From Thermanaeromonas toyohensis ToBE (GTDB lineage Bacteria > Bacillota > DSM-521 > Neomoorellales > Neomoorellaceae), in assembly GCF_900176005.1 (NCBI RefSeq), contig NZ_LT838272.1:1-64000 (forward strand): a DNA stretch of 64,000 nucleotides, read 5' to 3'. A program made the translations under genes and the position numbers. The notes below the pieces were generated by a model. That model was not told the origin of the DNA, did no database searches, and saw nothing but the letters and a program-made list of their open reading frames with translations. Shown one piece after another: positions 36,620 to 45,668 of this stretch. The first letter of the stretch is position 1; each line of letters starts with the position of its first letter.

Positions 36620-38377
36620 ATGAATATACTCGTACCTTTACTATTAGGCCTGTTGCTTTTCTTTTTCGGGTTCCAGTTCTATAGGAGAGCTTTAAGCCGG
36701 ATCTTTGGTGAGGATGATACCCGGAAAACCCCAGCAGTTGAGCTAAATGATGGCGTGGATTATGTGCCTTCGCCTCCGCTTGTTGTTTTCTCTCACCATT
36801 TTGCGGCCATTGCAGGGGCGGGCCCTATTGTCGGGCCGGTAACAGCTATGCTTTTTGGTTACGTCCCTGTATGGCTTTGGATTGTACTGGGGGGCATCTT
36901 TTTTGGAGCCGTTCATGATTATAGCGTGCTTTTTGTTAGTCTCCGCGAAAAAGGGAAATCAGTAGCCGAGATTGCCCGCAGTACTATGGGCCGCTGGGGC
37001 TTTTCCTTCTTTATACTTTTCACTCTAGCCATGATAGTACTGGTGACTTCTGCCTTCCTTAATTTAACAGCCGTCGCCTTAACTTCCCTCGCTCCCGCCT
37101 CCGAATTGAAGGTAGATCCAGCTACTACCAGCCTCCACATAGTGATGAAAAATAATGTACCCATGGTTCAAATTGGGGGAATTGCTTCTACCTCAGTAAT
37201 AGTTATGACGATTTTGGCTCCCCTGATTGGATATCTCCTCTACAAGCGCGGCATCAATACCATTCTTGCTTCCCTCCTAGCCATAGGTATCTGTATATTT
37301 TCCGTCATCGTCGGAGTTTATTATCCTGTAACTTTAGATCCTAAAACATGGATGTGGCTTCTTGCTATTTACTGCTTCTTTGCCGCCGGCATTCCGGTAT
37401 GGCTGGTCCTGCAGCCGCGGGATTTTGCCAATTCTTTTATCCTTTATGCTGGCGTAATCATGCTAGCTATCGGTGTGGTTGTTGGCGGTTTGACAGGTGT
37501 GACCATTCAAGCTCCCCCGGTGAATTTAGCAGAAGGAGCTGCCAAGCTAGGTATGGTTTGGCCCTTCCTTTTCATCACCGTGGCTTGTGGGGCTATTTCA
37601 GGTTTCCATGGGTTAGTGGCCAGCGGTACAGTACCTAAACAAGTGACCAAGGAAAGCCAGGCAAGTATCATCGGCTATGGAGCTATGATTGTGGAGAGCA
37701 TTTTTGCCCTCCTGGTCCTCTTAACTGCTGCGGCGGGATTAAAGTTTAGCCAATACTTAAATATCGTTTTTCCTACTTCGGGAGCCTCCAACCCCATCTT
37801 AGCCTTTGCCTTAGCTACAGGTAATTTACTCCATAATTCTCTAGGGCTACCTATTATGGTCGGTACTGTTTTTGGCATTATCCTGATTGAAGGCTTTGAA
37901 ATCACCACCTTAGATGCGGCCGTAAGACTAAACCGGTATTTACTGGAAGAGTTATGGAATGTCCTATTTAATGGTAAGCCCCATCCTCTTTTCCGCTCGT
38001 ATTACTTTAACGCTCTAATTGCTGTAGGCATGATGCTATATTTGGCTTATACCAACAAGTTCTTGGCCATCTGGCCTATTTTCGGGTCCGCAAACCAACT
38101 CCTAGCCGCTTTAAGCCTTATTGCTGTCTCGGTCTGGCTTTCGGTGCGGAAAAAACCCTATTGGTTTACCCTTATCCCGGCCATCTTTATGATGCTCACC
38201 ACTTTACGCGGGCTTTATTCTTTGCTCCTTACCAAATACCTGCCAACCCACAATATAGCGCTCATAATTACTGATATACTCCTTATAGGCTTATCCATTG
38301 GAGTGATAATCCTCTCCGGCTACAAGTTGGTAGAGGGGCTTAAAGCGCGTAAGCCTGCTTTGGACGAAGTTGCCTAA
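36620..38377 (+). CDS. cstA: Carbon starvation protein CstA-type transporter
   Basis: A 585-residue membrane protein with about 14-16 hydrophobic helices of the CstA family, which import pyruvate and possibly peptides. Landmarks are VDYVPSPPLVVFSHHFAAIAGAGPIVGP near the N terminus (read in parts), FGAVHDYSVLFVSLREKGKS and SGFHGLVASGTVPKQ. In other bacteria cstA/btsT is induced by pyruvate through a LytTR system; here the nearest two-component system is NarL-type. ATG at 36620 with AAGGAGGGG. Confidence 0.93.
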   Translation: MNILVPLLLGLLLFFFGFQFYRRALSRIFGEDDTRKTPAVELNDGVDYVPSPPLVVFSHHFAAIAGAGPIVGPVTAMLFGYVPVWLWIVLGGIFFGAVHDYSVLFVSLREKGKSVAEIARSTMGRWGFSFFILFTLAMIVLVTSAFLNLTAVALTSLAPASELKVDPATTSLHIVMKNNVPMVQIGGIASTSVIVMTILAPLIGYLLYKRGINTILASLLAIGICIFSVIVGVYYPVTLDPKTWMWLLAIYCFFAAGIPVWLVLQPRDFANSFILYAGVIMLAIGVVVGGLTGVTIQAPPVNLAEGAAKLGMVWPFLFITVACGAISGFHGLVASGTVPKQVTKESQASIIGYGAMIVESIFALLVLLTAAAGLKFSQYLNIVFPTSGASNPILAFALATGNLLHNSLGLPIMVGTVFGIILIEGFEITTLDAAVRLNRYLLEELWNVLFNGKPHPLFRSYYFNALIAVGMMLYLAYTNKFLAIWPIFGSANQLLAALSLIAVSVWLSVRKKPYWFTLIPAIFMMLTTLRGLYSLLLTKYLPTHNIALIITDILLIGLSIGVIILSGYKLVEGLKARKPALDEVA

Positions 38378-38516: not shown

Positions 38517-40223
38517 ATGGGTAGTAAGTATAGCTCAGGGGTTATGGCCATTAATCTAGAGGGTAAAATCATAGTATTTAACGAGGCTGCCCAGCGCTTA
38601 GCAGGTGTAAGAGCAAGCCAGGTCCTGGGGCAACCCATAGATAAAGTTCTTCCGGGCAACCCGTTACTGGCTGTTCTTAAAACGGGAGAGCGGGTGGTAA
38701 AGGAAGAAAAAGTTAGAGATAGGATCTTGCTGCTCGAGTGTTTCCCCTTACAGGATGCCGCTGGGGAAATTATAGGAGCTGTAGAGATATTACAGGATAT
38801 TACAGGAATTAAAACTCTGGAAGAAGAAGTCGCCCGCCTAAAAGAGAGGGAAAGCTTGCTAGAGGCTATAATAGATTGCACCCAAGACGCCATCTCTGTC
38901 TCTGATGCCCAAGGTAATGTTGTGCTGGTAAACCGGGCTTATACTGCCCTTACAGGGTTAAAACCGGAGGAGGTTATTGGGAAGCCGGCCACAGTAGATA
39001 TTGCCGAAGGGGAGAGCATGCACCTTAAAGTAGTAAAGACGCGGCAGCCCGTATATGGTATTCCGATGAAAGTTGGCCCGCATAAGAAAGAGGTGCTGGT
39101 AAATGTAGCGCCTATCCTGGTGGCTGGACAGCTTAAAGGCAGTGTGGGGGTTATCCATGATGTCTCTGAGATCCGCCGGTTAACCCGGGAACTGGATAAG
39201 GTGAAACGCCAGCTAAGATATCTCCATGCTAAATATTCTTTTGAAGATATAATAGGTGATAGCCCTCTTATGCAGCTAGCAGTAGCTCAGGCTAAAAAAG
39301 CGGCGGGGACCTCGGCTACAATTTTATTACGCGGGGAAAGCGGTACAGGTAAAGAGCTTTTTGCCCATGCTATCCATAACGCTAGCGCGCGAAAAGAAGG
39401 GCCTTTTATCCGGGTCAACTGTGCAGCCATACCGGATAACCTATTTGAAAGCGAGCTTTTCGGGTATGTAGAAGGGGCTTTTACAGGGGCCAAAAAAGGC
39501 GGGAAACGCGGGCTCTTAGAAGAGGCTAGTGGCGGTACCATCTTTTTAGATGAGATCGCTGAGATGAGTATAGCTATGCAGAGCAAGCTCCTCCGGGTAC
39601 TCCAGGAAAAAGAAATCATACGGGTAGGAGATAATAAGCCTGTTGCGATTGATGTGCGCGTCATAGCCGCGACTAATTCTAATTTAGAAAAGGCTGTGGA
39701 AGAAAAGCGGTTTCGCGAGGACCTGTACTGGCGCCTGAGCGTTTTCCCTATTTTTATCCCACCTTTGCGGCAGCGGAAAGAAGATATTCCTCGTCTGGCC
39801 CGATTTTTTGTGGATAAATATAATCATGAATATGGCCGTAATGTAAAGGAGATCTCGCCCGAAGTTTTAGATGTATTGCTTAAGTATTCCTGGCCAGGAA
39901 ATGTACGGGAACTAGAAAACGTTATCGCCCGGGCTATGATAAACATGCATTATGCGGATACCGTTATAACGCTAGAGCACCTCCCGCCTTTAGAAAAAGG
40001 GGTTCCTCTAGCCTCCCCCCACCAGCCAGATAGAATGGAAAGCCTACCCGCTTTAGAAAATAGTAATTTACCCGCCCTGGTACGGGAGAAAGAAAAGGAG
40101 ATTATACTAAATGCTTTGCGGCAAACTGGAGGCAATAAGACCAGGGCGGCCCGCCAGTTAGGGATACCCATCAGGACGCTGTATTATAAGCTAGAGCAGT
40201 ATGGCATAAAATATAAGCATTAA
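38517..40223 (+). CDS. Sigma-54-dependent transcriptional activator with PAS domains
   Basis: A 568-residue enhancer-binding protein. Two PAS sensor domains (about 5-95 and 110-215), an AAA+ domain with Walker A GESGTGKE (about 273-280), the sigma-54 contact loop GAFTGA (about 320-325) and FLDEIAEM, then a Fis-type helix-turn-helix (GNKTRAARQLGIPIRTLYYKL). Such proteins hydrolyse ATP to open sigma-54 promoters. A sigma-54 promoter lies at 40341 before the buk operon, so it is likely the BkdR-like activator of that operon. Confidence 0.94.
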   Translation: MGSKYSSGVMAINLEGKIIVFNEAAQRLAGVRASQVLGQPIDKVLPGNPLLAVLKTGERVVKEEKVRDRILLLECFPLQDAAGEIIGAVEILQDITGIKTLEEEVARLKERESLLEAIIDCTQDAISVSDAQGNVVLVNRAYTALTGLKPEEVIGKPATVDIAEGESMHLKVVKTRQPVYGIPMKVGPHKKEVLVNVAPILVAGQLKGSVGVIHDVSEIRRLTRELDKVKRQLRYLHAKYSFEDIIGDSPLMQLAVAQAKKAAGTSATILLRGESGTGKELFAHAIHNASARKEGPFIRVNCAAIPDNLFESELFGYVEGAFTGAKKGGKRGLLEEASGGTIFLDEIAEMSIAMQSKLLRVLQEKEIIRVGDNKPVAIDVRVIAATNSNLEKAVEEKRFREDLYWRLSVFPIFIPPLRQRKEDIPRLARFFVDKYNHEYGRNVKEISPEVLDVLLKYSWPGNVRELENVIARAMINMHYADTVITLEHLPPLEKGVPLASPHQPDRMESLPALENSNLPALVREKEKEIILNALRQTGGNKTRAARQLGIPIRTLYYKLEQYGIKYKH

Positions 40224-40237
40224 AAAAAATAAGCATT

Positions 40238-40275
40238 AAAAGGCTGCCTTGCAAGATCTTGCAAGGTAGCCTTTT
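40238..40275. terminator. Long hairpin terminator between the activator gene and buk
   Basis: AGGCTGCCTTGCAAG (40241-40255) pairs with CTTGCAAGGTAGCCT (40258-40272), one G.T wobble. T residues follow, and an A-run precedes it, so it could work in both directions. Confidence 0.85.
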
Positions 40276-40284
40276 AGTTTTATC

Positions 40285-40340: not shown

Positions 40341-40357
40341 TTGGCATGAAATATGCA
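40341..40357 (+). promoter_or_regulatory. Sigma-54 promoter (-24/-12) of the buk-ptb-vor operon
   Basis: TTGGCATGAAATATGCA fits the YTGGCACGN4TTGCW consensus with GG at -24 and GC at -12 correctly spaced. It is 58 bases before buk and just after the sigma-54 activator gene. Confidence 0.85.
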
Positions 40358-40414: not shown

Positions 40415-41482
40415 GTGAGACACTATTATATCCTAACCATAAATCCCGGTTCCACTTCCACTAAGATTGCTTTTTACCAGAATATAGAGCCTCTTTTTAC
40501 GGAAACGATACGCCATAAAATGGATGAACTAGCCCAGTTCCCGAGGATTATTGAGCAATTACCTTTCCGCCGGGACAAGATAATGAATTTCTTAAAGGAT
40601 AAGGATATTCCTCTTACCCGCCTTTCCGCTGTGGTTGGCCGGGGAGGTTTGCTTCGCCCCTTACCGAGCGGTACCTACCGGGTTAACGAAAAGATGCTTA
40701 AAGACTTGCGCGAGGGTTCTTATGGAGAGCATGCCTCTAACTTGGGGGCCTTACTGGCGGCTGAGATTGCTAGCGAAGCCGGGGTTTTAGCTTATGTTGT
40801 AGACCCGCCCTGCGTGGATGAGCTGGATCCTCTAGCCAGGGTTTCGGGTTGCCCGGAAATTGAGCGGCGTAGCCTGTTTCATGCTTTGAATGTAAAAGCG
40901 GTGGCCAGGAGAGTTTGCCGTGAATTAGGAGAACGCCTAGAAAATATTAACCTTCTTGTAGCCCATATGGGTGGCGGTATTTCCGTATGCGCCTTGAAAA
41001 GAGGAAAAGTGATTGATGTTAACAACGCTTTGGCAGAAGGACCGTTTTCGCCAGAAAGGGCGGGGGGATTACCTACCCTGGAGCTTGCGCGGCTATGTTT
41101 TTCGGGGCGTTACACTTGGGCAGAGGTATATAAGAAACTTGTGGGTCAAGGAGGTCTGGTGGCCTACCTTGGCACGCAAGATGCCACCGAAGTAGAAAAA
41201 AGAATTGAGCAGGGAGATGAAAAGGCCAGGCTTATATATGAGGCCATGGCCTACCAAGTGGCTAAAGAGCTAGGTAGCATGGCTGCGGTCCTAAAAGGGG
41301 AAGTCAGGGCTATAGTGTTCACCGGCGGGCTGGCTTATTCTTCTAGGCTGACAAGTTGGATAAAGGAGCGCGTTGAGTTTATCGCGCCAGTACTTATCTA
41401 TCCCGGGGAAGACGAGATGAAGGCTTTGGCGGAAGGGGCCTTGCGGGTACTAATGGGGGAAGAAAAAGCTTTAGAGTATTGA
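40415..41482 (+). CDS. buk: Butyrate (branched-chain fatty acid) kinase
   Basis: Acetokinase-family enzyme interconverting acyl-phosphate plus ADP and acid plus ATP. The 355 residues show INPGSTSTKIAFY, AVVGRGGLLRPLPSGTY, HMGGGISVCALKRGKVIDVNNAL and FTGGLAYS, matching Buk rather than acetate kinase. GTG at 40415 after GGCGGTAAGG. First gene of the operon. With the 2-oxoacid oxidoreductase below, the substrate may be isobutyryl- or isovaleryl-phosphate as well as butyryl-phosphate. Confidence 0.94.
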   Translation: MRHYYILTINPGSTSTKIAFYQNIEPLFTETIRHKMDELAQFPRIIEQLPFRRDKIMNFLKDKDIPLTRLSAVVGRGGLLRPLPSGTYRVNEKMLKDLREGSYGEHASNLGALLAAEIASEAGVLAYVVDPPCVDELDPLARVSGCPEIERRSLFHALNVKAVARRVCRELGERLENINLLVAHMGGGISVCALKRGKVIDVNNALAEGPFSPERAGGLPTLELARLCFSGRYTWAEVYKKLVGQGGLVAYLGTQDATEVEKRIEQGDEKARLIYEAMAYQVAKELGSMAAVLKGEVRAIVFTGGLAYSSRLTSWIKERVEFIAPVLIYPGEDEMKALAEGALRVLMGEEKALEY

Positions 41483-41498: not shown

Positions 41499-42392
41499 TT
41501 GCGGAGTTTTGAGGAACTAATTAAGGCGGCCCAAGATAAGGGGCCTAAAAAGGTAGTGGTGGCTGCTGCCCACGATGGGGAGGTAATACAGGCCCTTAAA
41601 AGCGCCCAGGAATTAGGGCTGGTGGAGGGTATCCTGGTAGGCGATTCTTCTCTTATCTATCAAGAAGCCCAAAAGTGGGGACTTGAGCTTAAAGAGAAGC
41701 AAGTCATTCATGAGACCGACCCTGAGGTAATCGCCAGCCGGGCTGTGGAGCTGGTCCGGTTAGGCGAAGGAGATATGCTCATGAAGGGGTTAATAGACAC
41801 GGCTAAACTTATGAAAGCTGTGCTGGATAAAGATAGGGGGTTGCGGACTGGCCGGGCTTTGAGTCATGTAGCTGTTTTACAAGTAGAGGGGATTGACCGC
41901 TTTATTTTCATAACTGATAGCGGGATAAATATAGCCCCTGATCTAGCTAGGAAAGCAGAGATCATCCAAAATGCCATTGAAGTAGCCCAGGCTTTAGGGG
42001 TAAAGGAGCCTAAGGTGGCAGTTTTGACAGCTATTGAAGTAGTGAATCCTGAGATGCCGGCTACAGTAGAAGCGGCCAATTTAGCCAAAATGGCTGAGCG
42101 AGGGCAAATCAAAGGGGCTATTGTAGATGGCCCCCTGGCCCTAGATCTAGCTATTTCTCCTGAAGCTGCTAAGCATAAAAAAGTAAATAGCCCGGTGGCG
42201 GGCAAGGCTGATATCCTAGTAGTACCTTATATCGAAGTGGGTAATGTCCTTCTTAAAGCCTTAATCCATTTTGCCCGGGCCAAGGCAGCAGGGGTAGTAA
42301 TGGGGGCTAAAGCACCCATTGTTTTAATGTCCAGGTCAGATGCCCACGAGACAAAAACTTACTCCCTGGCCCTGGGGTTAATGGTGGCTTAA
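41499..42392 (+). CDS. ptb: Phosphate butyryltransferase
   Basis: Exchanges CoA for phosphate on butyryl- or branched acyl-CoA, giving the acyl-phosphate used by Buk. The 297 residues belong to the Pta/Ptb family, with GLVEGILVGD, MKGLIDTAKLMKAVLD, HVAVLQVEGIDRFIFITDSGI (in parts) and VNSPVAGKADILVVP. TTG at 41499 after AAGGGGG, 16 bases after buk. Confidence 0.93.
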   Translation: MRSFEELIKAAQDKGPKKVVVAAAHDGEVIQALKSAQELGLVEGILVGDSSLIYQEAQKWGLELKEKQVIHETDPEVIASRAVELVRLGEGDMLMKGLIDTAKLMKAVLDKDRGLRTGRALSHVAVLQVEGIDRFIFITDSGINIAPDLARKAEIIQNAIEVAQALGVKEPKVAVLTAIEVVNPEMPATVEAANLAKMAERGQIKGAIVDGPLALDLAISPEAAKHKKVNSPVAGKADILVVPYIEVGNVLLKALIHFARAKAAGVVMGAKAPIVLMSRSDAHETKTYSLALGLMVA

Positions 42393-42408: not shown

Positions 42409-43113
42409 ATGAAGCGAATTGTTATATTTTGGGGCGCTTATGGCAGCGGCAAGACGGAAATAGCCATTAACTATGCTTTGGAGGGAGCTAAAAAAGGGAG
42501 AAGGGTTGCCCTGGTAGACTTTGATCTGGTAACCCCTTATTTCCGGGTTAGAGATGTTTACCGTTTTTTAGAAACCAAGGGGTTGCAGGTTATAAAACCC
42601 TCTAATGGAGTATGTAATTCTGATCTACCGGTTTTTTCGCCCGAGGTTCTAGAAGCTTTATATAATCCTTACCACCAATTGATCTTTGATGTTGGGGGAG
42701 ATGCTATAGGAGCTCGGCCTTTGGGTTACTTGTCTAAATTGTTGCCCAGCCAGGGTTATGAAGCTTTTTTAGTAATAAATATCAACCGCCCCCAGACAAG
42801 AGATATCCCCAGCATTAAAGCAGTTCTCCAAAATATAGAGCGGGTAAGCCGTATCAAGACTACGGGCCTGGTGAGCAATACCCATCTAGGAAACAGGACT
42901 ACCCTGGCAGATATCAAAAGGGGTTATGAAACTGTGTTACAAGCCTCCCGGGAGTTGGGGATTAAGCTTGCTTTTGTGTGTATCCCAGAGTTTTTGCGGG
43001 AAGAGTTACAGAGAAGCAGCTGGCAAAAGGATTTTCAAGCGCCTGTTTTAGTTTTGCGGCGTTATTTGCTTCTACCTTGGGAGGAGGATATAAATGCAGA
43101 GGGTGATATTTGA
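42409..43113 (+). CDS. P-loop NTPase of unknown function in the vor operon
   Basis: A 234-residue protein with Walker A WGAYGSGKTE (about 8-17), LVDFDLVTPYFRVRD (about 37-51) and Walker B-like LIFDVGGDAIG (about 92-102). It resembles SIMIBI/MinD-type nucleotide-binding proteins (dimeric ATPases such as metal- or cofactor-insertion factors). Its place between ptb and the ferredoxin subunit suggests a role in assembling or regulating the oxidoreductase; this is inference. ATG at 42409 after GGGGGTGAAA. It overlaps the ferredoxin gene by 20 bases. Confidence 0.75.
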   Translation: MKRIVIFWGAYGSGKTEIAINYALEGAKKGRRVALVDFDLVTPYFRVRDVYRFLETKGLQVIKPSNGVCNSDLPVFSPEVLEALYNPYHQLIFDVGGDAIGARPLGYLSKLLPSQGYEAFLVININRPQTRDIPSIKAVLQNIERVSRIKTTGLVSNTHLGNRTTLADIKRGYETVLQASRELGIKLAFVCIPEFLREELQRSSWQKDFQAPVLVLRRYLLLPWEEDINAEGDI

Positions 43114-43297
43114 TGAGGAGAGGTGCAAAGGATGCGGCCTGTGCCAGGAGGCTTGCCCTAAAGGGTTAATTTCTATGGCTTCTAGGATTAATACCAAGGG
43201 ATTTCACCCGGCTACTGTACAAGACGCATCCCAATGCACAGGCTGCGCCTTATGCGCCAGGATGTGTCCAGATGTAGCTATCGAAGTCTACCGGTAA
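43094..43297 (+). CDS. vorD: 2-oxoacid:ferredoxin oxidoreductase, delta (ferredoxin) subunit
   Basis: A 67-residue 2[4Fe-4S] ferredoxin with two cluster motifs, CKGCGLCQEACP and CTGCALCARMCP. It relays electrons from the TPP subunit to free ferredoxin. ATG at 43094 within the end of the P-loop gene. Naming as Vor rather than Kor is from the buk-ptb context; specificity is not set by sequence alone. Confidence 0.88.
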   Translation: MQRVIFDEERCKGCGLCQEACPKGLISMASRINTKGFHPATVQDASQCTGCALCARMCPDVAIEVYR

Positions 43298-43310: not shown

Positions 43311-44375
43311 ATGACTGAGATGGTGCTAATGAAAGGGAACGAGGCTGTAGCTGAAGCTGCCATCCTGGCAGGTTGCCGGTATTATTTTGGCTATCCCATT
43401 ACTCCCCAGAACGAGATAAGCGAGTATATGGCCAAAAGGATGCCCGAGGTCGGGGGGGTATTTTTACAGGCTGAGAGCGAGCTGGCCGCTATCAACATGG
43501 TTTATGGTGCGGCCGGGGCGGGCGGCCGCGTTATGACCTCTTCGTCCAGTCCGGGTATAAGCCTTATGCAAGAAGGTCTTTCTTACCTTGCGGCCGCGGA
43601 ACTTCCTTGTGTGGTGATAAATATGATGCGCGGAGGGCCGGGGCTGGGGGGAATCCAGCCTTCCCAAGCGGATTATTTCCAGGCAGTTAAAGGAGGCGGC
43701 CACGGGGATTACCACCTGGTGGTGCTGGCCCCGGCTACTATCCAGGAGATGATAGATCTCACTATAGAGGCTTTCGATATAGCTGATAATTACCGGGTTC
43801 CCGTGATGGTATTAGGGGATGGGATGCTAGGCCAGATGATGGAAGCTGTAAATTTAAGGCTCCCCAGAAAAATTCCAGCTACTTCTAAGAGTTGGGCCAC
43901 TACAGGAGCAAAGGGGCGTGCGCGGAATATTATTACTACCCTTTATTTAGATCCCGCTGAGCTGGAAAAGCATAACTTGCGCTTGCAGGAAAAATATGTC
44001 TGGTTAAAAGAAAGGGAAGTGCGGTACGAGGAGCTTAACTGCGAAGATGCCGAGATAATTATTGTAGCTTATGGCACTACCTCCCGTATAGCCCGGACAG
44101 CCATAAAAAATGCGCGCGCAGAAGGCATCAGAGTTGGCCTGCTACGGCCGATAACCCTGTGGCCTTTTCCTGCGAAAGCTTTTAAGGAGATACTGGAGAG
44201 GGGCGCTAAGGCTTTCCTATGCATTGAAATGAGCGCGGGCCAGATGGTGGAGGATGTTAGGCTGGCTGTGGACGGGAAGGCTCCGGTTTACTTTTATGGG
44301 CGGACGGGAGGTGTGGTCCCCAATCCGCGGGAAGTCTTAGAAGAGATTAAGAAAGTTAGCCAAGGAGAGAGGTAG
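43311..44375 (+). CDS. vorB: 2-oxoacid:ferredoxin oxidoreductase, alpha subunit
   Basis: A 354-residue pyrimidine-domain/transketolase C-terminal type subunit (PorA/KorA/VorB). Typical stretches are [29 protein letters not shown], split over the N terminus, [19 protein letters not shown] and [11 protein letters not shown]. With the beta subunit it binds TPP and oxidises a 2-oxoacid plus CoA to acyl-CoA, CO2 and reduced ferredoxin. ATG at 43311 after AAGGGGGAA. Confidence 0.92.
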
Positions 44376-44382
44376 AGGTAAA

Positions 44383-45114
44383 ATGAAGAAGGTCTTTAGC
44401 CGGCCGCAGGCCATGACAGAAGAGAAGATGCATTATTGCCCGGGCTGTACCCACGGTATAGCTCACCGCCTGGTAGCAGAAGTTATCGATGAGTTAGGGA
44501 TATTAGAGCGGGTGATCGGGGTAGCTTCTGTAGGCTGCTCGGTTTTAGCCTATAACTATTTTAACTGTGATTTCCAACAGGCAGCCCATGGCCGGGCTCC
44601 GGCGGTGGCTACAGGGATTAAAAGGGTCTTACCCGACCGGATAGTTTTTACCTACCAGGGTGATGGGGATCTGGCAGCCATTGGGACGGCAGAGATCATT
44701 CATGCCGCGGCCAGAGGAGAAAAAATCACGGTAGTATTTATAAATAACGCTATTTATGGCATGACAGGGGGGCAAATGGCGCCAACTACCTTACCAGGCC
44801 AGAAGACCACCACTTCGCCTTCGGGCAGGGATGTAAGCTATGCCGGGTATCCTTTAAAGGTTGCGGAAATCTTAGCAGCTTTTCCTGGGGCAGCTTACGT
44901 TGCGCGCGTTTCCCTCCATGATCCAGGAGAGATAGCTAAAGCGAGGAAAGCCTTGCTTAAGGCCTTTAAGACCCAATTAGAAGGGAAAGGATTTTCCTTA
45001 GTTGAGATTTTATCGAGTTGCCCTACCAACTGGGGGATGACACCGAAAGAGGCATTAAAATGGGTAGAAGAACATATGGTACCTTACTACCCGCTGGGAG
45101 AATTTAAGGGTTAA
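44383..45114 (+). CDS. vorA: 2-oxoacid:ferredoxin oxidoreductase, beta (TPP-binding) subunit
   Basis: A 243-residue TPP-binding subunit: [18 protein letters not shown] (one Cys pair, cluster or metal related), [20 protein letters not shown] (the GDGD...N TPP motif) and [20 protein letters not shown]. Matches KorB/VorA-type proteins. It starts 8 bases after the alpha gene. Confidence 0.92.
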
Positions 45115-45137: not shown

Positions 45138-45668
45138 TTGGGCCAGGAGATAATTATAGCTGGTTTTGGAGGCCAGGGGATAATGGCTATGGGGAGTTTG
45201 CTAGCCTATGCCAGTATGCTAGAAAAAAAGAAAGTGTCCTGGCTACCCTCTTATGGTCCTGAAATGCGAGGAGGCACAGCCAATTGCACGGTGGTCATTT
45301 CTGAAGAAGAGATTGGCTCTCCAGTAGTAGCAGAGCCTACAGCCGTTATTGCTATGAATAGGCCCTCCTTAGATAAATTTGAACCCCTTTTAAGGCCAGG
45401 GGGGTTCTTATTTATTAATACTTCTCTTATTGATCGCGAGGCAAAGCGTCAAGATGTAAAAGTCGTACAGGTCCCAGCCACTACCATTGCTGGCGAACTC
45501 GGGAATTTAAAGGTGGCTAATATGGTTATGCTGGGGGCCTTTGTTAAAGTAACTGGGGTTGTAAGGTTTGACACCCTGCTTCTGGCTTTACAGAAGGCTC
45601 TGCCTGAGCGACACCGCCATCTTATTCCCCTAAATGAACAGGCTTTAAAGCGCGGCGCGAGTTTATGA
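45138..45668 (+). CDS. vorC: 2-oxoacid:ferredoxin oxidoreductase, gamma subunit
   Basis: A 176-residue gamma subunit: [39 protein letters not shown] and [13 protein letters not shown]. Last gene of the operon; TTG at 45138 after AGGGGTGAAAG. No clear terminator follows within the 70 bases before the rpmG promoter. Confidence 0.92.

Follow-up and report, generated by a model that had tools for sequence, protein, structure and literature searches.

The gene under study lies in a 64,000-nucleotide stretch of the Thermanaeromonas toyohensis ToBE genome (contig NZ_LT838272.1, positions 1 to 64,000), hereafter the window. It occupies positions 42409–43113 of the forward strand, starts with an ATG and encodes a 234-residue protein assigned, from its open reading frame, its motifs and its predicted fold, as a SIMIBI-type P-loop NTPase. 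The genes that follow on the same strand encode a 2-oxoacid:ferredoxin oxidoreductase (OFOR): vorD (43094–43297), the [4Fe-4S] ferredoxin or delta subunit with two Fer4 stretches; vorB (43311–44375), the alpha subunit, which scores 587 bits against the NF005507 cut-off of 399; vorA (44383–45114), the beta, TPP-binding subunit with a TPP_enzyme_C match; and vorC (45138–45668), the gamma subunit of the PorC/KorC type (TIGR02175, 88.9 against a cut-off of 81.1). The four usual OFOR subunits (alpha, beta, gamma and ferredoxin) are together in this operon, which is of the VorDBAC type. As in other vorDBAC operons the four subunits are ordinary ones, with VorB and the gamma subunit above their NCBIfam cut-offs; the window unit differs by a fifth, unnamed gene in front, that of the NTPase. 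On the other side, and also on the forward strand, are buk (40415–41482), a butyrate/acyl kinase gene (TIGR02707, 538 against 289 bits), and ptb (41499–42392), a phosphate butyryl/acyl transferase gene (PRK05805, 400.9 against 399; TIGR02706 below its cut-off). The name of the VorB model and the adjoining buk and ptb are what suggest 2-ketoisovalerate as the OFOR substrate.

The NTPase ATG lies 16 bases past the end of ptb and is preceded by its own ribosome site, GGGGGTG. The NTPase stop codon ends at 43113 while the vorD ATG is at 43094, and a strong ribosome-site-like sequence, GGGAGGAGG, precedes this ATG within the 3' end of the NTPase gene. The first-pass annotation had placed the gene between ptb and the ferredoxin subunit with a 20-base overlap, which the reading-frame coordinates confirm. 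A single NTPase copy was found at E ≤ 0.001 in the 3.33-Mb Thermanaeromonas genome. The contig of this genome holds nine POR_N (OFOR alpha-type) loci; the single NTPase copy can therefore stand beside at most one of them.

Further upstream on the same strand are a gene for a CstA-family carbon starvation/pyruvate transporter (36620–38377) and, directly 3' of it, a gene for a sigma-54-dependent activator with PAS domains (38517–40223), identified by Pfam and NCBIfam matches. CstA-like matches were also seen near vor genes in two other loci (L095 and L197). A terminator-like stem (40235–40278) follows the activator gene, and then, shortly 5' of buk, a tentative candidate −24/−12 promoter of the form GG-N10-GC (40342–40357, forward strand, two mismatches to the pattern). 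Across the whole window, the scan for such sites returned 15 matches against a shuffle mean of 23, which is not above chance; the terminator-like stems were likewise not above chance overall in the window. The GG-N10-GC site could possibly be a sigma-54 promoter for the buk-ptb-NTPase-vor cluster. The activator itself is probably the regulator of the cluster, since similar genes recur near buk, ptb and vor in related loci.

The NTPase carries a Walker A motif G-A-Y-G-S-G-K-T at residues 9–16, the pair D37-x-D39 and a Walker B motif D94-V-G-G at residues 94–97. Seven residues (G14, K15, D37, D39, D94, N124 and R127) are invariant in all 207 distinct NTPase rows aligned, including those fused to FolC; the pair N124-x-x-R127 is thus strictly kept, and N157 is present in 206 of the 207. 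The AlphaFold2 model of the window protein (pLDDT 91.0, pTM 0.89) forms a single compact domain, to which only a short C-terminal helix and a tail of low confidence are added, and lends no support to the membrane tethering that the first-pass annotation had envisaged. On this model, the K-[ST] P-loop, the acidic residue after beta-2, the Walker B aspartate and the fold place the protein in the SIMIBI class, so that the earlier label "SIMIBI-like" was well chosen.

The closest folds to the predicted model in VIA-align are those of the SRP GTPases FtsY/Ffh and of FlhF (Z about 13 to 15.6), over about 170 to 187 aligned residues and at 13 to 24 percent identity. The SRP GTPases feature an N domain, for which the NTPase has no room, and the NKxD guanine motif is lacking from the NTPase. 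Further fold neighbours of the model are TRC40/Get3, HypB, AF_226, Cfd1 and ApbC (Z 13.2 to 14.7); the HypB entry (Z 13.7) is an ATPase-type HypB. At the sequence level, a PDB search with a 60-row profile matched MinD, ParA and ApbC as its best hits, mostly over about 40 N-terminal residues. No NCBIfam model reached its cut-off on the window NTPase, which is not among the subunits named by these models and stands, as first proposed, outside the known complex. The best Pfam match of the window protein was CbiA (PF01656), at 24.4 bits just below the gathering cut-off of 25.4. CbiA was also the commonest Pfam match among relatives (56 of 60 at E ≤ 0.01, a count by E-value rather than by gathering cut-off); this domain (CobQ/CobB/MinD/ParA) is a broad one and does not denote a function. 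In a Monoglobus record, NCBI labels the NTPase a "hypothetical protein".

With MinD, Mrp, ParA and CooC the NTPase shares the predicted fold, the Walker A and B motifs and a single asparagine where NKxD would stand. It differs from them by the missing deviant Walker A lysine at position 10, seen in 1 of 207 rows, and by the missing conserved cysteine. No cysteine column exceeds 30 of the 207 rows, a CxxC, CxC or CC occurs anywhere in only 11 of the 207, and no histidine column exceeds 77. The Fe-S carriers Mrp, ApbC and NBP35 bind a bridging cluster through two conserved cysteines, to which the NTPase columns show no counterpart. The likeness to MeaB/MMAA and HypB is one of idea, a nucleotide-driven partner for a single enzyme. 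MeaB carries NKxD, as does the GTPase-type HypB (PMC9164220), whereas the motif is found at residues 157–160 in 0 of 207 NTPase rows, a count that is silent on ATPase-type HypB, and the NTPase also lacks a conserved Cys/His site. With neither the lysine of MinD/CooC, nor NKxD, nor a conserved cysteine, the NTPase shows none of those hallmarks of known metallochaperones that were tested. CooC likewise retains just the asparagine of NKxD (PMC9164220), and by this analogy the lone asparagine of the NTPase suggests ATP rather than GTP as its nucleotide.

In order to determine how far the association with OFOR genes extends, we searched 398 genomes of the window's phylum. NTPase relatives (E ≤ 1e-10) were found in 242 of them, the window's own included, and the VorB model matched 302 (E ≤ 1e-60), 228 of these over the model's own cut-off. 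The breadth of this distribution and the kept active-site residues show that the NTPase is not a chance reading frame. Both genes were present in 237 genomes, the OFOR only in 65, the NTPase only in five and neither in 91 (Fisher's test, 3e-40, a value that ignores kinship). VorB is thus matched in 237 of the 242 NTPase genomes against 302 of the 398 overall. Among the five NTPase-only genomes, in one (G333, locus L128) the NTPase lies at a contig end next to an incomplete VorB gene, and in another (G271, locus L215) a divergent OFOR adjoins it.

Gene positions were compared among the best 150 matches for each protein in the 398 genomes. Of the 150 VorB matches, 68 had a listed NTPase within 3 kb by coordinates, in all 68 cases upstream and on the same strand; the median distance of 287.5 bases between the listed pairs leaves room for the ferredoxin gene. 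The other 82, without a listed NTPase within 3 kb, comprise some second operons, genomes free of NTPase and cases in which a lower-scoring NTPase falls outside the best 150. Seen from the NTPase side, 113 of the best 150 places are directly 5' of vor genes, one of these ending after vorD; 68 were established by coordinates and 45 from 70 fetched contexts. Of the remaining 37, six belong to the same buk/ptb/sigma-54/vor cluster, 27 follow folC or are fused to it, with no vor genes alongside, and four lie elsewhere. Homologues therefore do not lie mostly outside such operons, and the tie to the 2-oxoacid oxidoreductase operon drawn at first sight is upheld.

Over 136 loci, the NTPase stop lies at a median of 37 bases from the vorD match, with 108 at 100 bases or less and eight overlapping. 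The gene 5' of the NTPase varies (buk, folC or others, with 19 loci left unassigned), so that the conserved unit is the NTPase plus the OFOR. We found buk/ptb near 35 of 130 directly vor-linked relatives and none within 8 kb for the other 95, the flank being 1.5 kb at some loci; a role tied to buk/ptb is thereby disfavoured. Because loci L121–L190 were picked for having no listed VorB beside the NTPase, the sets of 178 and 207 rows lean against linkage. The weakest NTPase relatives come from 90 genomes; a repeat search covered 80 of these, and the context was read at 30 places. Taken as a whole, the association of the NTPase with the OFOR is near certain. In single loci, other neighbours were seen: the NTPase is directly 5' of a larE-like gene, so named from reading the frame, in L123 (6001–7531), and larE-like genes stand 3' of vor genes in L165, L169 and L173.

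The pairing also extends to a second OFOR type. A deep NTPase branch of 21 rows, labelled by the neighbouring gene, forms one clade with a support of 100 and includes genomes of the window's own family. It precedes a different OFOR, whose alpha subunit is about 35 percent identical to VorB and whose gene order, in the three divergent loci read further (L231–L233), is alpha-beta-gamma-ferredoxin. The NTPase-OFOR pairing thus spans a deep split and two gene orders. In L231 (8182–11692), the divergent NTPase and OFOR adjoin genes that, from reading the frames, resemble dnaX, ybaB and recR.

In the family of Neobacillus vireti (G418), the NTPase is present in 36 of 121 genomes and the VorB model matches in 38. 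The 36 NTPase genomes coincide exactly with those matched by VorB at E ≤ 1e-100, and none of the other 85 carries the NTPase, including two with a weaker VorB (E about 1e-64). Among 40 VorB rows of this family, 37 are preceded by the NTPase at a distance of up to 1.5 kb, and the three exceptions are below the model cut-off. One genome (G626) carries two NTPases, one ahead of each VorB, and another (G663) has an NTPase in two pieces beside an intact VorB, from decay or from a sequencing error. The distribution in this family is patchy, as if the NTPase had been gained by transfer; Bacillus-like records such as L054, L063 and L072 show an NTPase-vorDBAC cassette.

Scanning genome contigs with the single NTPase protein as query returned no relative. 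A profile scan returned 572 loci, of which the best 80 were named; these include Atribacterota, Acidobacteria, Zixibacteria, Desulfobacterales, WOR-3, Planctomycetota, Myxococcales and Bacillus-like members. At 69 of these best 80, vorD lies downstream on the NTPase strand. The NTPase is rare in the phylum of Desulfosarcina widdelii (5 of 198 genomes), where all five copies adjoin vorD and vorB. This patchy spread suggests that the NTPase-vor unit may be a mobile cassette.

The OFOR also exists without the NTPase. VorB was matched at E ≤ 1e-100 in 232 genomes, 38 of which lack the NTPase; a profile search of these 38 returned only two P-loop matches of about 40 residues, one of which extends to 85 by BLAST. 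The NTPase is thus not universally needed. On a VorB tree with NTPase-absent rows drawn from 21 of the 38 genomes, these 21 rows require 12 changes, at least eight of them forced by starred branches, indicating that loss (or gain) of the NTPase occurred many times. Such repeated absence marks it as an accessory rather than an obligate subunit. A comparison of Vor residues in the presence and absence of the NTPase gave each of the four subunits a maximum z above the 95 percent point of the null; this signal rests on few substitutions (z 6.7 at a VorA site, in 2 of 9 pairs) or on conservative changes, and no interpretable site emerged in the Vor subunits.

A second genomic link connects the NTPase with folC, which precedes the NTPase and the vor genes in 10 of 207 rows and the NTPase alone in 30 of 207. 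FolC and the NTPase form a single open frame in 11 genomes of one family (f50, 11 rows) and in G012, and a 685-codon frame in G324 suggests the same fusion. The fusions, such as those at L002 (1489–3498, reverse strand) and L003 (145–2190, forward strand), join a folylpolyglutamate synthase to the NTPase; in several of these genomes a SPOR-domain-like gene, named from reading the frames, comes next. Eight vor operons located apart from a folC-linked NTPase (L191, L193 and L254–L259) have no NTPase 5' of vorD. It is unlikely that a stoichiometric subunit of the OFOR would be fused to FolC, and a trans-acting factor would fit these arrangements better. A folate role was rejected as the main reading: folC-NTPase-vor chains in 8 of 70 loci join both forms, and none of the five genomes lacking a VorB match is a folC-only genome.

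As the NTPase is encoded right beside the OFOR in most of the examined bacteria that have it, it very probably works for this enzyme specifically, as a helper or as a switch. Our preferred reading, to which we give a probability of roughly 45 percent, is that it is a dedicated ATP-dependent maturation or activation factor of the OFOR. An ATP-switch role would agree with an OFOR partner kept across contexts, a predicted single domain, a kept active site and absence in places. The NTPase gene opens a conserved unit of five genes, NTPase-vorD-vorB-vorA-vorC, and its product would serve the OFOR encoded by the other four as a soluble ATP-driven switch, similar in logic to MeaB or CooC and from a different family. 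We infer that it may dock on the assembling or inactivated OFOR, where ATP binding and hydrolysis would control how the TPP/Fe-S enzyme is loaded, assembled or reactivated. It would act in trans and not as a catalytic subunit, since the operon of some lineages does without it and in others it is fused to FolC with the vor genes elsewhere. In the window, the OFOR would supply acyl-CoA to Ptb and Buk, leading to ATP. Of the roles first proposed, maturation and activity control are the more probable.

Published clusters bear on this reading in both directions. In Blautia hydrogenotrophica, RUMHYD_00553, a "hypothetical" gene between a 4Fe-4S gene and buk, is listed as upregulated (8.74) with its neighbours (PMC6378601); by gene position, it should be of the same NTPase family. 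According to PMC13290082, several OFORs made in E. coli showed no activity, and a RUMHYD_00549–00553 clone expressed as one VOR gave VOR-like activity in E. coli; by gene position, this clone seems to hold the NTPase already. Counting against the need for a helper, the Clostridium sporogenes VOR, cloned from four locus tags (CLOSPO_00146–00149), showed activity in E. coli together with sufABCDE (PMC13290082).

The main rival, to which we give about one chance in four, is an energy-state regulator that binds ATP/ADP and reversibly inhibits or activates the mature OFOR, so that 2-oxoacid oxidation keeps pace with the ATP made through ptb/buk or with the ferredoxin pool. A predicted soluble single-domain nucleotide switch with one enzyme partner, absent in some lineages, would suit such a regulator, as would the acyl-phosphate-to-ATP genes near 35 of the 130 vor-linked relatives; the 95 without buk/ptb in the flanks examined do not. 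Known SIMIBI switches are moreover mostly of another kind, namely chaperones or targeting factors, which speaks against this rival.

Two further readings are improbable. The NTPase might be a small-molecule enzyme, a BioD/CbiA-type ATP-using ligase or kinase that makes or modifies an OFOR substrate or cofactor, the folC link then being a second use of the same product. CbiA is indeed the commonest Pfam match, BioD-type enzymes also have no MinD-type lysine, and the FolC fusions of family f50 and G012 are compatible with this proposal; against it, the link is one-to-one with OFOR genes and not with a pathway, and no substrate-site motif was recognised in the NTPase. Slightly less probable still is a metallochaperone in the strict sense, one that would supply the OFOR with Fe, Ni or an Fe-S cluster in the way that CooC, HypB or ApbC/NBP35 supply their own clients. 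HypB, ApbC, Cfd1 and AF_226 are fold neighbours of the model and the client has Fe-S clusters; the scarcity of cysteines, cysteine pairs, histidines and the MinD/CooC lysine in the 207 rows speaks against it, and the Fe-S carrier role that had been considered for the gene is disfavoured in its narrow sense.

That the NTPase is a hitchhiker unrelated to the OFOR, carried in an inherited gene block, is very improbable: operon neighbours are co-inherited and OFORs without NTPase exist, but the linkage is kept over several phyla while other neighbours change, and it recurs in two OFOR types with different gene order and with the nucleotide site kept throughout.

We know of no dedicated helper for 2-oxoacid:ferredoxin oxidoreductases. 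A search of the open literature, with most subscription papers outside its reach, found neither an OFOR accessory factor nor this NTPase family. Nucleotide-driven helpers of a single enzyme are already known as a principle. We consider it an even bet that the OFORs of much of the window's phylum, and of scattered members of other phyla, possess an ATP-driven factor dedicated to their maturation or activation. Such factors would form a SIMIBI family apart, lacking the MinD lysine, NKxD and metal ligands, paired with two OFOR types and fused to FolC in some lineages. OFORs are an ancient class; both anaerobic amino-acid fermentation and acetogenesis rest on the carbon and electrons that they carry. 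If this reading is true, a conserved ATPase would be, to our knowledge, the first accessory factor of the OFOR class.
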